64,000 nt of DNA from an uncultured Archangium sp. (lineage in GTDB: Bacteria; Myxococcota; Myxococcia; Myxococcales; Myxococcaceae). The position numbers and the translations under genes are program-made. Of the stretch, positions 2,674-38,652 are shown one piece after another (within the stretch, counting starts at the first letter, position 1; each line of letters opens with the position of its first letter). Where the stretch lies: positions 1-64,000 of the forward strand of contig CAIVGN010000238.1 of assembly GCA_903905455.1 (NCBI GenBank), written 5' to 3'. A model generated the notes under the pieces. The model had not been told where the DNA came from and did no database searches. It was given only the letters and a program-made list of their open reading frames with translations.

Positions 2674-5600
2674 CTACCGCACGGTCACCTGCAGCGCGTA
2701 CCTGAACTGCCCATTGGTCCCTGAAGCGAACGACGACGCGCGGACCATCAAGTACCAGGTGACGCTGGTGGTCCCGCTGTTCTTGGCCGCCGAGTACGCG
2801 GGCACGCTCCCGGTCCCATCGATCATCGAGCAGAACCCGCGGCCGCTGTCGTCGTCCTCGACCAACTGCGTCCCGGCGGCGTTGTACAAGGTCAGCCTGC
2901 TGTCGAGCGTGAGCGACTCGCAGGTGGTGCCACCGCCCTCGATGACCTCCGCGCGCAGGCCCTTGCCCGGGGGCACGGTGACCGCCCACACGTCCACGTC
3001 GGTCAAGGTGGTGTGATCGCCCGAACCCCACGCGTTGACCTGGCTGATCAGCGTCGCGGAGGCGGTGGCGATGGTCTCATCAGGCTCGACCTCGTTGCCG
3101 GCAGCCGACTGGAACGCGACCTCGAGGAAATACCGCGCGACGACGGCGTTCAACCCGGTCTCTTCGACCTGCACGTAATAGGTGCCCGCGGCGACGTTGA
3201 TCACCAGGGCGCTGCAGCTGGCGATGCCGGTGGTGTTGTCGGTGGCCACCTGGGTGCCGGCGCCATCGAACACCCGCAGCGTGGTGGTGGTGCTCGCGTC
3301 ACAGTCGCCCGGGGTGGTGAAGGTCTCGAAGCGCAGCACGCCGCTCGAGGCCACGGTGACGCGGAACAGGTCGAGGTCGGTGGCGGTGCTCAGCGTCCCG
3401 CGCAGCGTCGTAGTCCCGGTGACCTGCACGGTCGAGGCGTCGGCCAGGGCGCGGGTGCCGTTCTGCTCCACCTCGTCCACGGCGTTGAAGCGGCAGAGGT
3501 TGGTGCACTGATCCGTGTTGACCTGGTTGCCGTCGTCGCACTCTTCGGGGGCGGTGACGATGCCGTTGCCGCACACGATGGCGGTGAAGCCGATCTCCAG
3601 CCCGTAGCCCGGCACGGCGGCGTCATCGCCGTACTCCACCACGTGGGCGTAGACCGTCTGCCCGGCGGCGAGGGTGTAGGTGAGCCCGGAGCAGCGATCG
3701 GCCGAGAGGTTGCGGTCGTCGTTCGAGAGCAGCACCGTGCCCGCGGCGTCGCGCAGGTTGAGCCCCAGGTCGATGCTCGTGGCGCAGGCCACGCCCTGGC
3801 CGTAGCCGGTGGCGCGGTTCCAGGTGTCGAGGCGCAGGACCTGGGGGAGCAGCGTGTCGTTGGTGATGGCGAACACGTCTTCGTCACCGGCCGGGGTGAG
3901 GGCGGCGACGATGGCGGTGTTCCCCAGCGAGGCCAGCACGGCGCCGTTGGTGTTGGCGTTGGCGCTGGCGAAGTCGTTGCCGAGGATGCCCGAGCCACCG
4001 GTGATGGTGGCGCCGTCTTCGTTGGGTTCGATCTCCGTGCGCTCGAGGCGGCAGTTCGCGCCGCAGCCGTCGAGGGCGCGGGTGTTGCCGTCGTCGCACT
4101 GCTCCGAGCCGTCGACGAAGCCGTCGCCGCAGGCCTGCGCGCGCATCACGCAGGTCGAGGGCATGGTGCCGCTGCAGCTCCAGCCCACTTCCACGGTGCA
4201 CGTCGCGGAGCAGCCGTTGCCGCTGGTGACGTTGCCGTCGTCGCAGGCCTCGGTGCTGGCCTTGAGCCCGTCGCCGCAGGTGGTGGTGCACACCGAGGGC
4301 ATGCCGCTGCAGGCGAAGGCGAACTCCACGGTGCAGGTCGACGAGCAGCCGTTGCCGCTGGTGGCGTTGGCGTCGTCACAGGCCTCGCCGAAGACGATGA
4401 CCCCGTCGCCGCACACCCCGCGGCAGACCGAGGGGGTGGTGCCGGTGCAGGCGAAGCCCGACTCCGGGGCGCAGGTGGCCGAGCAGCCATCGCCGTTGGC
4501 CACGTTCCCGTCGTCGCAGCCCTCGGCCGCGGCCCTGGCCCCGTCGCCGCAGCGCACCGAGCACACCGAGGGCATGGTGCCCGCGCAGGCGTAGCCCGGT
4601 TCGACGGTGCAGGTGGCCGAGCAGCCATCGCCGCCCACCAGCGCGCCGTCGTCGCAGCCTTCGGTGCCACCCTTGATGCCGTCGCCGCAGACCGCGGTGC
4701 AGGCCGAGGGAATGCCGGCGCAGGCGTAGCCCGCCTCCACGGTGCAGGTCGCCGAGCAGCCGTCTCCGCTGATCAGGTTCCGGTCGTCACAGGCCTCGAC
4801 GCCCTGGCGCACGCCGTCGCCGCACAAGCCTCCGCACACCGACGGGGAGCCGGTGCACGTCCACCCCAACTCCACGGTGCAGTTGGTGGCGCAGCCATCC
4901 AGGGCGTTGATGTTGCCGTCGTCGCAGGCCTCGGCGCCGACCTTCAGGCCGTCTCCGCAGCGCGTGACGCACGACGAGGGCAGGCCGGCGCACACGTAGC
5001 CGCTCTCGGCCTGGCAGGTGGCGGAGCAGCCGTCGCCGGCCACGGTGTTGCGGTCGTCGCAGGTCTCGGCGCCCACCGCGATGCCGTCGCCGCAGCTGCT
5101 GGCGCAGGTGGACGGGGAGCCGGTGCAGGCGAAGCCCGTCTCCTGGAAGCAGTTCATCGAGCAGCCGTCGCCGCCGGTGCGGTTGCCGTCGTCGCACTCC
5201 TCGCCGGTGGTGATGGTGCCGTTGCCGCAGGTGGAGATGCAGGACGAGGGCATCATCGTGCAGGTGTAGCCGGGCTCGACGCGGCAGCCCGCGGAGCACC
5301 CGTCGCTGCCCACGGTGTTGCCGTCGTCGCAGGTCTCGGTGCCGGCCACGATGCCGTTGCCGCAGCGGGTGACGTTGCAGTTGTTGTCGCAGCCGTCGCC
5401 GTTGATGGCGTTGCCGTCGTCGCAGCCCTCGGTGCCGGCCCTGGTGCCGTTGCCGCAGCCCGTGGGGCGACAGGTGCCGCCCACGCCGTCGTCGCAGCCG
5501 TCGTCGTTCGACTTGTTGCCGTCGTCGCAGGCCTCGGTGGGCTGCTGCACGCCGTCGCCGCAGCTCCCCGCGACGCACACGTTCTGGGTGCACACGCCGC

Positions 5601-26859: not shown

Positions 26860-27993
26860 ATGGGTGGAGACCTGCTGGTGGTGGACGATTCGCCTCAGAA
26901 CACCGAGGTGCTGATGGCGCTGCTGGCTTCGCGCGGACACTCGGTGCGGGTGGCCCACGGGGGCCGCGAGGCGCTGCGCCTGGTCGACGAGCAGACCCCC
27001 GACCTGGTGCTGCTCGACGTGCACATGCCCGACCTCGACGGCTTTGCGGTGTGCCGGGCGCTGCGGGAGACCTGGGCCAGCGCCCAGCTGCCGGTGGTGT
27101 TCCTCTCGGCGGCGCAGGACCCGGTGAACAAGCTCAAGGCCTTCGAGGCGGGCGCCGTCGACTTCGTGACCAAGCCCTTCCACTTCGAGGAGGTGCTGGC
27201 CCGCGTCGCCACGCACCTCGAGCTGAAGCGGGCGCACCAGCGGCTGCACGCCCTGGAAGCCTCGCGGCGGCGCTTCATCACCGCCCTGGTGCACGACATC
27301 AAGAACCCGCTGACGCCCATCTTGAAGAACACCGAGTGGCTCCTCGAGCAGGCCCCGGTGGAAGACCACGAGACCCTCGAGGTGCTGCGCGACATCCACG
27401 TGGCGGCGAACCACCTGCACCGCATGGTGCTCTCGCTGCTCGACGTGGCCAACGACTCGGCCCGGGGGCCCCCGGCGCGGCCGGTGCGCGTGGCGCTGCG
27501 GGCCTGGGCCGACGAAGCGCTCGCGCTCGTCACCCTGCGCCTGCGCTCGCAGCCGGGGCGCCTGCAGGTGACGGTGGAAGACGGCTCGGCCACCTTCGAT
27601 CCGCAGCTCATGGCGCGGGTGCTGCACAACCTCGTCGACAACGCGCTCAAGTACGCGCCGCGCGACGAGCCGCTGCACGTCGACGTCAGGGGTGAGACGG
27701 GCGGCCTGCGCCTGTGCGTCGAAGACCGCGGCCCCGGGGTGCGGCCCGAAGACCGCGAGCGCATCTTCCACGCGTGGACCCGGCTCGACGACGCCGACCC
27801 CCACGCGCGCACCAGCCACGGCATCGGCTTGGCGTTCTGCCGCCAGGCCGTGGCGTCACACGGCGGTGACATCCGCGTGGAAGACGGTTCGCCCTCGGGC
27901 GCGCGCTTCGTGGTGACGCTGCCCGGTTGTGGCTCCAACGCTGATCAAGCCGCCGCCTGCACGGGCCCGACGAGGGGAGCGAACGCGACTTGA
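26860..27993 (+). CDS. Receiver-histidine kinase fusion, C-terminus altered
   Basis: A 377-residue soluble sensor kinase. Residues 1-120 form a receiver domain (LVVDDS, phospho-acceptor in LVLLDVHMPDLDG, conserved Lys in VTKPF). A HisKA helix follows with the phospho-acceptor in ALVHDIKNPLTP, then an HATPase with LVDNALKYAP, DRGPGV and HGIGLAFC. It lacks membrane segments, so it is probably driven by a partner phosphorylating the receiver. After GARFVVTLPG the last ~21 residues come from a different sequence: the same 31 bases recur at 28862-28892, followed there by a short in-frame end (GGVG, stop at 28903). The native C-terminus thus seems displaced by an insertion. Confidence 0.85.
   Translation: MGGDLLVVDDSPQNTEVLMALLASRGHSVRVAHGGREALRLVDEQTPDLVLLDVHMPDLDGFAVCRALRETWASAQLPVVFLSAAQDPVNKLKAFEAGAVDFVTKPFHFEEVLARVATHLELKRAHQRLHALEASRRRFITALVHDIKNPLTPILKNTEWLLEQAPVEDHETLEVLRDIHVAANHLHRMVLSLLDVANDSARGPPARPVRVALRAWADEALALVTLRLRSQPGRLQVTVEDGSATFDPQLMARVLHNLVDNALKYAPRDEPLHVDVRGETGGLRLCVEDRGPGVRPEDRERIFHAWTRLDDADPHARTSHGIGLAFCRQAVASHGGDIRVEDGSPSGARFVVTLPGCGSNADQAAACTGPTRGANAT
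27896..27926 (+). repeat. 31-bp direct repeat, left copy
   Basis: Identical to 28862-28892. It encodes the end of the last HATPase strand of the receiver-kinase (ARFVVTLPG region). Flanking sequences are not related outside the 31 bases. Confidence 0.9.
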
Positions 27994-28147
27994 AAGCCAG
28001 CGCGCTCAAAGACAGCCATGGGGTGCTGGGGAGGTCGGTGGCCTGACGCGGCAGCCCTCTCGCGCAGCGCCGCGGCCCCGGACGCTTCGTGACCCCAGCT
28101 TGATGGCTTCGCCGGGGAGACCCCGCGAGGTGCGCGGGTCTCGGAGT

Positions 28148-28225
28148 GCGTCATCAAAGATGACAAACTCATCGGCAGGTCCTCTCGCGTGTGTGATGCA
28201 TCTGAATTGTCATCTTTGATGACGC
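28148..28225. promoter_or_regulatory. Pair of identical GTCATC-N3-GATGAC palindromes
   Basis: GCGTCATCAAAGATGACAA at 28148-28166 recurs as its exact complement at 28207-28225. Each arm is itself a 15-bp palindrome (GTCATC-N3-GATGAC). Their centres are 59 bases apart. This resembles a dimeric regulator binding twice with DNA looping, or a recombination site. The arms are AT-rich against a GC-rich background. Confidence 0.5.
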
Positions 28226-28466
28226 GGTGGCGGACCCCTGCTCCCTCCGCGCCCCCCTGCCCAACGCGGAGTCAAGCCGTCACCGAACGTTCGCGCCGAG
28301 AGGCTGACCAGTTCCTGGTGCAGCGTCGGGAACCCACCCCCGACCGCCCCTCCCTGCCTGCCGCAGTTCGGCGTCACGCAGCTTCCGGAGCGCCACCGGA
28401 AACCAACCGTGCCCCCGTATCGCCGCGCGTTGCGTGGGGCGGCGGCTTCGGACGAGGATGCAGCCC

Positions 28467-28724
28467 ATGACGACGTACCGGATGATGCTGATCGGGCCCT
28501 GCGGCTCGTTGGCGTCCCTCACTGGCTCTGCCTGCGTGACAGCCGGCGAGTGCACCAACCAGGTGCTCCTGCTCGACGGCGGCACGTATTCGCACTTCGC
28601 GAACGCGCAGGGCTGCGCGGGCACCGGCGTGTACCGCTGCGCAGAGGCGGACGCAGGGGATCCGACCTGGGCAAGCGCCTGCGACTGCAGCGTGGACGGC
28701 GGGCTCTGTCAGCAGAACCGGTAG
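28467..28724 (+). CDS. Small cysteine-rich hypothetical protein
   Basis: An 85-residue frame within the inserted segment. It contains eight cysteines (for example GSACVTAGECTN, QGCAGTGVYRC and CDCSVDGGLCQQN) and resembles the cysteine patterns of larger lipoproteins in this window. ATG 28467 has GAGG about 9-10 bases ahead. A clear signal peptide is missing. It could be a fragment of a decayed lipoprotein gene. Confidence 0.4.
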   Translation: MTTYRMMLIGPCGSLASLTGSACVTAGECTNQVLLLDGGTYSHFANAQGCAGTGVYRCAEADAGDPTWASACDCSVDGGLCQQNR

Positions 28725-28861
28725 GCCGGTGCGGTGGGCGGCGTCGCGCATGCGCGGTGGCATGACCACCAAACCGACGCAGACCCAACCCCGGTGTCGG
28801 TGCCGCACTCCCTGCCATGCCATGCCGTGCTTGCCCCGGAGCCCATCGTTGCGGTGACAAC

Positions 28862-28892
28862 CGGGCGCGCGCTTCGTGGTGACGCTGCCCGG
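28862..28892 (+). repeat. 31-bp direct repeat, right copy
   Basis: Identical to 27896-27926. It is followed by GGC GGG GTG GGG TGA in the same codon phase, which looks like the original end of the kinase gene. Confidence 0.9.
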
Positions 28893-28942: not shown

Positions 28943-29827
28943 ATGTTTCGTCATCGCGAAGACCGGCTCCCGCTGTTCCTGATGTTCTGCCTCTTCTGCG
29001 TGGACGTGTCGGTCTACCTGTGGGTCGACAACGTCCTCGCGCTGCTGGCGTACTCGCTGATCAGCATGCTGCCCAAGGCCGGCATCTGCGCCTTCAACCA
29101 CCACCACCAGCACGTCTCGACCTTCCACCACGCCTGGGCGAACCGGCTGCTGGAGGTCATGTACATGCTGCAGACCGGCGTCTCCAGCCAGGCCTGGGTG
29201 CTGCACCACTCGTTGGGCCACCACCTCAACTACCTCGACCAGACGAAGGACGAGTCGCGCTGGGCCCGGGACGACGGCTCGCGCATGGGCGAGTGGGAAT
29301 ATGCGTGGGTCACCACCCTGACCGCCTACCCCCGCGCCTGGGTGGTGAGCGCCAAGCACCCCCGGCAGCGCCGCATCTTCGCGGTGATGGGCGTTCTCTC
29401 GGTGCTGCTGATGGCGGCCCTCGTGGCGTACCGCCCGGCGGCTGGCCTGCTGGTGTTCGTGATGACGCCGCTGGTGCTGCTCTACGGCACGGCGCTGGCG
29501 ACCTACACGCACCACTCCGACCGCGCGACGGACAACGACTTCGTCGCCTGCAACAACATCATCCAGACCTTCTACAACAAGTTCACCGGCAACCTCGGGT
29601 ACCACACGGCGCACCACCACCGGCCCGGCATGCACTGGTCGAAGCTGCCGGCGCTGCACGCGGAGATCCTCCCGAAGATTCCGAAGGAAGCCTTCACCAT
29701 TCCCGGCGTGCCGTGGCGGTGGTTCGGCACGTGCGAGGGCGCCGAGAACTTCGCGCCGTACACCGTGGCGCAGCAGGCCACCGCGTCGGTCGCGCCGGTC
29801 GGTCCGCCCCGGCAGGCCGCGAGCTGA
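28943..29827 (+). CDS. Membrane fatty acid desaturase/hydroxylase family protein
   Basis: A 294-residue membrane protein with the histidine boxes of the di-iron desaturase superfamily: HHHQHVSTFHH (53-63), HHSLGHH (88-94), THHSD (189-193) and HTAHHHRPGMHW (221-232). Hydrophobic segments at about 10-45 and 145-185 fit two membrane hairpins. Family members introduce double bonds or hydroxyl groups into acyl chains, using oxygen. The substrate is unknown. The reconstructed old stop of the receiver-kinase lies only 37 bases ahead of ATG 28943, which suggests they were once adjacent. Confidence 0.85.
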   Translation: MFRHREDRLPLFLMFCLFCVDVSVYLWVDNVLALLAYSLISMLPKAGICAFNHHHQHVSTFHHAWANRLLEVMYMLQTGVSSQAWVLHHSLGHHLNYLDQTKDESRWARDDGSRMGEWEYAWVTTLTAYPRAWVVSAKHPRQRRIFAVMGVLSVLLMAALVAYRPAAGLLVFVMTPLVLLYGTALATYTHHSDRATDNDFVACNNIIQTFYNKFTGNLGYHTAHHHRPGMHWSKLPALHAEILPKIPKEAFTIPGVPWRWFGTCEGAENFAPYTVAQQATASVAPVGPPRQAAS

Positions 29828-37449: not shown

Positions 37450-38652
37450 TCACGGCCCGAACGGGGGCTGCCCACCACCTGAGCCACAACCCGCGACCGG
37501 ACCTTCGCTGCGCGGCTGGCACGACGGCGCCGGCACGTCGCACGGCACGCACCCGCCCTGGCCGTCGTCGCGGCAGTCGGTGGTGCAGGCGTACGAGACG
37601 ACCTCACAGCGGCTGTCCGTCGAGCAGGTGGCGAGGTCGAGGCCGAGGCACGGTGAGGGCGGCGAGACCGGCACGCAGATGACCTGCGCGTCGCACGGGG
37701 CGCACAGGGCGTTGGGCGGGCACGCCGGGCACACCCCGAGGGCTTCCACGGCGCAGTCGGTGCGGGCGCTGCAGGCGGCGACGTCGAGGCCCGCGCAGGT
37801 GTCCACCACCGCGTCCACGCACACCGGCGTCGCCATGCACGGAGGGCAGGTGGTGTTGCCGGTGGGGTCCACCGTGCAGGTGCACGCGCTCACCGACTCG
37901 AGGCGACACTCGGGGTGCACGGCGCAGGTGTTCGGGTCGAAGCTGCCGCAGCCCGCGGGCACCGCGTCGACGCAGCGGGGCTCCGAAGCACAGGGGGGAC
38001 ACTCGGTCTGCCCCAGCGAGTTGGTGGTGCACACGCAGACGGGGCTCTCGAGGCGGCACTCGGGGTGCGTGGTGCAGGTGTTGGCGTCGAAGCTGCCGCA
38101 GCCCATGGGCGCCGCGTCGACGCAGCGGGGCTCCGAGGCGCAGGGAGGACACGCGGTCTGTCCGGACGAATCAGTCGCGCAGGCGCAGATCGGGCTCTCG
38201 AGGCGGCACTCGGGGTGCGTGGTGCAGGTGTTGGCGTCGAGCGCGCTGCACGACGGCGGCGGCGGGGTGACGCACCGGCGCTGCGTGGGGCAGGGCAAGC
38301 AGCCCCCGAGCGCGTCGTCGGCGCACAACGTCGCGCACGCCAGCTCTTCGAGGCGACAGTCGCTGCGCAGGCCGCACGCCAGCTCACCCAGCGCGTCGCA
38401 CGAAGGAGGCGTCACCGTCACGCACTGGAACCCGCCGCAGGGCTGACACCCGCCGTGCCCATCGTCGAGACACACCGCCGCGCACGCGAGCTCCTGCTCC
38501 GCACAGTCGCTGCGCGCGCCACACGCGGCGCGGTCCAGCGTCTCACAGCGGGTCAACGGCTGAGGGGGCGTCACGCCGGGAGGCTGCGTCTCGAAACCAC
38601 GACCACACGCGGTAGCGACGACGACCAGGGCGACCCACGAGAGCTTGTGCAT
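37450..38652 (-). CDS. Cysteine-rich repeat lipoprotein
   Basis: A 400-residue protein with a lipobox (MHKLSWVALVVVATAC). It is built of about seven cysteine-rich units, of which three are near-identical 50-residue repeats (CGSFDANTCTTHPECRLESP, then a CPPCASEPRCVDA end). At the DNA level these are 150-bp tandem repeats starting at 37900, 38050 and 38200. The cysteines are regularly spaced and probably disulfide-linked. No catalytic domain is seen. It is convergent with phhA with a 5-bp gap. The repeats can expand or contract by recombination, which may vary the surface protein. Confidence 0.8.
   Translation of the reverse strand: MHKLSWVALVVVATACGRGFETQPPGVTPPQPLTRCETLDRAACGARSDCAEQELACAAVCLDDGHGGCQPCGGFQCVTVTPPSCDALGELACGLRSDCRLEELACATLCADDALGGCLPCPTQRRCVTPPPPSCSALDANTCTTHPECRLESPICACATDSSGQTACPPCASEPRCVDAAPMGCGSFDANTCTTHPECRLESPVCVCTTNSLGQTECPPCASEPRCVDAVPAGCGSFDPNTCAVHPECRLESVSACTCTVDPTGNTTCPPCMATPVCVDAVVDTCAGLDVAACSARTDCAVEALGVCPACPPNALCAPCDAQVICVPVSPPSPCLGLDLATCSTDSRCEVVSYACTTDCRDDGQGGCVPCDVPAPSCQPRSEGPVAGCGSGGGQPPFGP
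37900..38349 (-). repeat. Three 150-bp tandem repeats inside a lipoprotein gene
   Basis: The units start with GAGGCG[GA]CACTCGGGGTGC at 37900, 38050 and 38200, exactly 150 bases apart. The units at 38050 and 38200 share at least their first 40 bases. They keep the reading frame (50 codons each). Confidence 0.85.

Follow-up and report, generated by a model that had tools for sequence, protein, structure and literature searches.

A probable decayed insertion-sequence derivative flanked by a long direct repeat at the 3' end of a histidine kinase gene in an uncultured Archangium

Introduction

What process places an exact second copy of a gene's last coding bases almost a kilobase downstream of the first? 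The question is raised by a kinase gene in a stretch of 64,000 nucleotides from an uncultured Archangium sp. (contig CAIVGN010000238.1, positions 1 to 64,000 of the forward strand; hereafter the window, to which all unprefixed coordinates refer). An initial annotation, prepared from the sequence alone, proposed that an element had entered the 3' end of the gene and duplicated its attachment sequence, a pattern familiar from genomic islands and prophages with attachment sites in gene 3' ends. Here, we compare the locus with related genomes and with known mobile elements, and describe an insert bounded by what appear to be two insertion sequence (IS) ends, with an unrelated palindromic repeat lodged between them.

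Results

The direct repeat and its gene context

The receiver and histidine kinase gene (26860-27993, plus strand; an ORF matching Pfam Response_reg, HisKA and HATPase_c) contains near its end the 31-bp sequence CGGGCGCGCGCTTCGTGGTGACGCTGCCCGG (copy 1, 27896-27926, plus strand), which recurs exactly, as the initial annotation had reported, at 28862-28892 (copy 2, plus strand), with a spacing of 966 bp and 935 bp between the copies. Among exact direct repeats in the 64-kb window whose copies lie no more than 5 kb apart, this one is the second longest, the other long ones probably lying, to judge from their tandem spacing, inside internally repetitive genes; no further full copy of the 31-mer is present in the 8.6-Mb genome (251 contigs). 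The stretches 3500-5550 and 37930-38240, probably parts of repetitive genes, contain long internal direct repeats with exact matches of 19-49 bp, many spaced 135-150 bp apart.

The annotation was also right that the downstream copy continues in frame to a short end and a stop: copy 2 extends as ...GARFVVTLPGGVG and stop, which leads to GGVG, the native end of the kinase (stop codon 28903-28905), and thus restores the short native C-terminus. An in-frame stop lies a few codons before copy 2 (R-stop-QPGARFVV), which marks this copy as a duplicate of the gene end and not, as had been considered, a fragment of a different kinase gene. Copy 1 reads into the insert, where the kinase gains about 21 residues (GCGSNADQAAACTGPTRGANAT, then stop), and the native stop is not restored. 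Downstream follows a fatty acid desaturase gene (28943-29827, plus strand; PF00487), the native neighbour of the kinase.

An empty site in a congeneric genome

In Archangium sp. MAG-75 (G002; JAEUJS010000570.1), a member of the same genus, the kinase and desaturase genes are adjacent and uninterrupted, without the insert, which is the arrangement that the annotation had advised seeking in relatives. Both flanks align with the window, at 64% amino acid identity for the kinase up to residue 355 and 70% for the desaturase; the G002 kinase ends in GARFVVELPLN and stop, and the desaturase ATG follows about 17 bp after the kinase stop. Given this uninterrupted junction, the segment in the window is an insertion. 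The lineage of the window most likely gained 935 bp plus one repeat copy, a very precise loss in G002 being less likely. A kinase ortholog beside the desaturase was absent from the other desaturase loci examined, and G002 therefore provides one independent empty site.

The ends of the insert

When 144 related genomes were searched, the initial 56 bp of the insert matched at three places in an uncultured Myxococcales MAG of the same family (G018; CAIWFK01 contigs). That genome contains the matching repeat three times, always next to different sequence and always at the end of a contig, where the common sequence stops the assembly; for these reasons the repeat reads as a mobile element. The copies have a common boundary, CGGGTGTGCCTCCCATGCTGATCAAGC, and the alignment begins at base 1 of this repeat and at 27924, exactly where the insert starts; the first 27 bases align ungapped with 22/27 identities, and identity is 80% over 60 columns (59 bp of the insert). 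The local alignment score of the G018 terminus against the insert is 52, whereas the maximum among 2,999 same-length random segments of the Archangium genome is 29. The left end is thus strongly indicated to be a mobile-element terminus.

The left terminal inverted repeat, CGGTTGTGGCTCCAACGCTGATC (27924-27946, plus strand), agrees at 16/23 positions with the other insert end (28841-28863, minus strand; reverse complement CGGTTGTCACCGCAACGATGGGC), and the element ends read CGGTTGT...ACAACCG. The annotation's description of the ends as weakly inverted is apt, since they match at 10/14 positions, a level reached by 1.2% of random position pairs. Support for the right end as the partner of the left is modest. 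With its left edge matching the G018 terminus and its other end an imperfect inverted copy, we read the insert as bounded by two IS ends. The annotation had further advised a genome-wide search for other copies of these ends. It returned none: in its own genome, the two insert ends are the only exact occurrences of the end motif GGTTGTNNCNNCAACG, and with up to one mismatch the genome total equals that of the control. One own-genome match to the repeat plus the first 27 bp of the insert (contig C16, position 36877) looked like a chance match.

Because CG/CGG is common to the repeat and the element ends, the left boundary may be off by as many as 3 bp and the right one by as many as 2 bp. If CGG is taken as the first element bases, an IS-derived element on the minus strand spans 27924-28863 (940 bp), its left edge coinciding with the boundary common to the three G018 copies, and the target duplication measures 26 bp (27898-27923, GGCGCGCGCTTCGTGGTGACGCTGCC, and 28864-28889). 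On this reading, element ends and target have CG and CGG in common, which makes up the other 5 bp of the 31-bp match; as such a coincidence is somewhat unlikely, the target duplication could extend to 31 bp.

A trace of a transposase-like gene

Just inside the left end, at 27945-28008 on the minus strand, lies the probable remnant of a transposase-like gene 3' end (...AVFERAGFQVAFAPLVGPVQAAA, then stop), with the frame and stop position of the G018 element (...LTLAPLVRHVRRAA, then stop). The minus-strand frames stop at the same place, as ...DDAMDLTLAPLVRHVRRAA in G018 and ...RAGFQVAFAPLVGPVQAAA in the window, with the common pattern ...APLV..V..AA before the stop. In G018 the 3' part of the gene is apparently intact, whereas in the window about the last 20 codons remain, the frame being cut off upstream by the palindromic repeat described below. 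No Pfam or NCBIfam model matched these roughly 20 residues. The statement that the segment encodes no recombinase accordingly holds for its present content, but overlooks this trace.

The other end of the G018 element was not found in about 100 further G018 contigs sampled (those shorter than about 3 kb appeared as N), and neither these contigs nor the genomes searched contained a full-length parent. Comparison of the IS terminus with plasmids, both as DNA and as peptide, gave chance matches only, and IMG/VR held no match for the IS end or for the orphan ORF of the insert.

A palindromic repeat inside the insert

About 40% of the insert is a copy (28009-28372, ~360 bp; core arms 28148-28166 and 28207-28225) of a dispersed, imperfectly palindromic repeat of ~340-375 bp, which interrupts the transposase-like frame. 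The family core (56-74 bp, GTCATCAAANWTGACA...TGTCAWNTTTGATGAC) has 13 sites with both arms exact in the same genome and 0 in 98 relatives; allowing one mismatch, about 32 loci in the genome carry one arm or both, against 0 matches to a reversed control. The arms vary together (GTTGAC/GTCAAC, ATTGAC/GTCAAT, GATGAC/GTCATC), mismatched pairs also occurring; the loci are mostly intergenic, and the window copy has a fold z-score of -5.0. No Rfam family matched, no flanking duplications above chance were detected, no Y1/RAYT transposase is present in the genome and no mobiliser of the family was identified. At another locus (L067; G000:C179:9000-12000), tandem ~249-bp repeats with 85-bp exact shared blocks have an outer segment, CCATGGCTGTCTT, in common with the palindromic family.

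The closest copy (G000:C203:18202-18613) aligns with 28000-28417 (80% identity over 418 bp) and is flanked by a gene end on one side and the stop of an hmuY gene on the other. The stretch 28373-28417 resembles the 3' end of hmuY (GTVGFRWR versus GTIRFRWRYVN and stop at C203), which suggests that the palindromic repeat may have brought flanking chromosomal DNA along. Two further hmuY genes were considered as the source of this piece and do not account for it.

The right part and the insert as a unit

For the right part of the insert (28373-28861), none of the genomes searched offered a convincing relative. This part includes an orphan ORF (28434-28724, plus strand; 85-96 aa) that is Cys-rich with a lipoprotein-like start, and whose codon-like GC3 of 0.90 hints that it may be coding. 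The ORF matches no Pfam or NCBIfam family and has no significant PHROGs match, and searches of 99 relatives gave weak matches only. As a unit, the insert has no second copy in its own genome, and none turned up among about 147 genomes of the class; phages gave no match to it, and plasmids short chance matches only. The suggestion that it may represent a new non-autonomous element was therefore overstated: the unit is single copy, and the palindromic repeat that landed inside it is unrelated.

Discussion

We consider it probable that the insert is a decayed insertion-sequence derivative, a non-autonomous relic with both IS ends around mostly foreign DNA. It has terminal inverted repeats and a flanking duplication of the target, and in G018 a relative of it is repeated at three unrelated sites. 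In this view, an IS with inverted ends of the CGGTTGT type would have entered the last codons of the kinase gene, and staggered cutting by its transposase, followed by repair, would have duplicated 26-31 bp of the target. The transposase gene, on the minus strand and terminating some 20 bp inside the left end, would later have been broken by the ~360-bp palindromic repeat, and the rest of it lost or replaced through deletion or replacement. Such a relic is presumably immobile at present, and any movement would require a matching transposase supplied in trans. Against this reading stand the single copy in the genome, the lack of a full-length parent among the sequences searched, the brevity of the protein trace, the absence of relatives of the right half from the genomes searched, and termini that do not start precisely with TGT, unlike those of IS1202.

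To our knowledge, target duplications longer than 15 bp have been recorded in few IS groups, and there is no agreed mechanism for them. In the IS1202 group they measure 15-17 and 24-29 bp (PMC10045372) or 16-28 bp (PMC10132070), the outer ends read TGT...ACA (PMC10132070), the subgroup with long duplications has imperfect 24-26-bp inverted ends, e.g. 16/24 (PMC10132070, PMC10045372), and the elements are 1.5-2.5 kb long with a DDE transposase of 394-507 aa (PMC10132070, PMC10045372). The duplication beside the insert, 26 bp and at most 31 bp in its one copy, lies in the range of that subgroup; however, the TGT of the insert lies 4 bp inside the end, and if TGT/ACA are taken as the ends the flanks do not form a clean duplication. 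Of a transposase, about 20 C-terminal codons survive in the insert, and these gave no Pfam or NCBIfam match. Some members of the IS1634 family (IS1549, IS1634) duplicate long and variable stretches of target (8-514 bp), and the published end consensus of the IS1634 family is C-----YT (PMC2266710); the insert resembles that family in its long duplication and differs from it in its ends, which do not fit the consensus, and a search for an IS1634-type transposase (NF033559) gave 0 matches in the genome. With no such transposase, an unsuitable TGT...ACA and the parental transposase not recovered, we file the element in neither family, while its long duplication resembles that of the IS1202 group. 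That the insert belongs to an undescribed myxobacterial IS family with CGG(T/G)TGT ends and 26-31-bp target duplications, which mobilises small transposase-less derivatives, is a speculative extension that we think rather unlikely to be correct. If a parent were found, a myxobacterial family making duplications of this length would be a useful comparison.

The attachment-site explanation would make the insert the remnant of a tyrosine-integrase island or satellite, with the 31-bp repeats as attL and attR in the gene 3' end and the integrase deleted. A repeat of 31 bp at the 3' end of a gene has the typical size and place of an att core, and this one fits in both respects; copy 2 restores the native kinase end, so that, as with islands and prophages integrated in gene 3' ends, the direct repeat recreates the end of the gene, and the genome encodes four tyrosine recombinases. 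Unlike those elements, the insert contains no integrase gene and its edge is a transposable-element terminus. That terminus recurs in three unrelated G018 contexts, which is unlike site-specific integration, and the only integrase in the genome with a resolved att uses a 26-bp tRNA 3' end; these points weaken the explanation. Against it also stand the failure of copy 1 to restore the kinase stop, the absence of phage similarity and the short, chance nature of the plasmid matches. We judge it unlikely. Of the original proposal, entry into the 3' end of the gene stands, on the evidence of the empty site in G002 and the mobile-element ends seen in G018, while the duplicated sequence is better described as a target-site duplication beside inverted ends than as an attachment site.

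A one-time event in which chromosomal DNA was captured at a staggered double-strand break and the overhangs of ~31 nt were filled in would suit the single copy of the insert and its mosaic interior of palindromic repeat and hmuY 3'-end-like stretch. It leaves unexplained why the insert edge matches a mobile-element terminus to the base, and likewise the inverted ends, and we regard it as quite improbable. A still-mobile, MITE-like non-autonomous transposon with a long target duplication would have the features seen here, with both IS-like ends, about 0.94 kb, an exact duplication and no transposase, but such elements are multi-copy, and neither its own genome nor about 147 genomes of the class contain another copy of this one, which makes this very unlikely. 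There is only a slight chance of an assembly chimera, for which the draft state of the genome (251 contigs) and the position of the joins in a 31-mer could speak, given that both joins would need the same 31-mer and would have to reconstruct an IS end with a duplication, that the palindromic repeat of the insert belongs to its own genome and not to relatives, and that the segment is interior to a 96.6-kb contig.

Read as a decayed IS derivative, the insert shows how a long target duplication can mimic an attachment-site duplication and how an IS may decay while hosting other repeats, and the kinase with its 21-residue tail from the insert would be a simple case of an IS altering the end of a protein. 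Elsewhere in the genome, a probable integrated element of 10.5 kb (L177; G000:C129, about 84871-95390) is bounded by 26-bp repeats resembling a tRNA 3' end and has a tyrosine integrase just inside.
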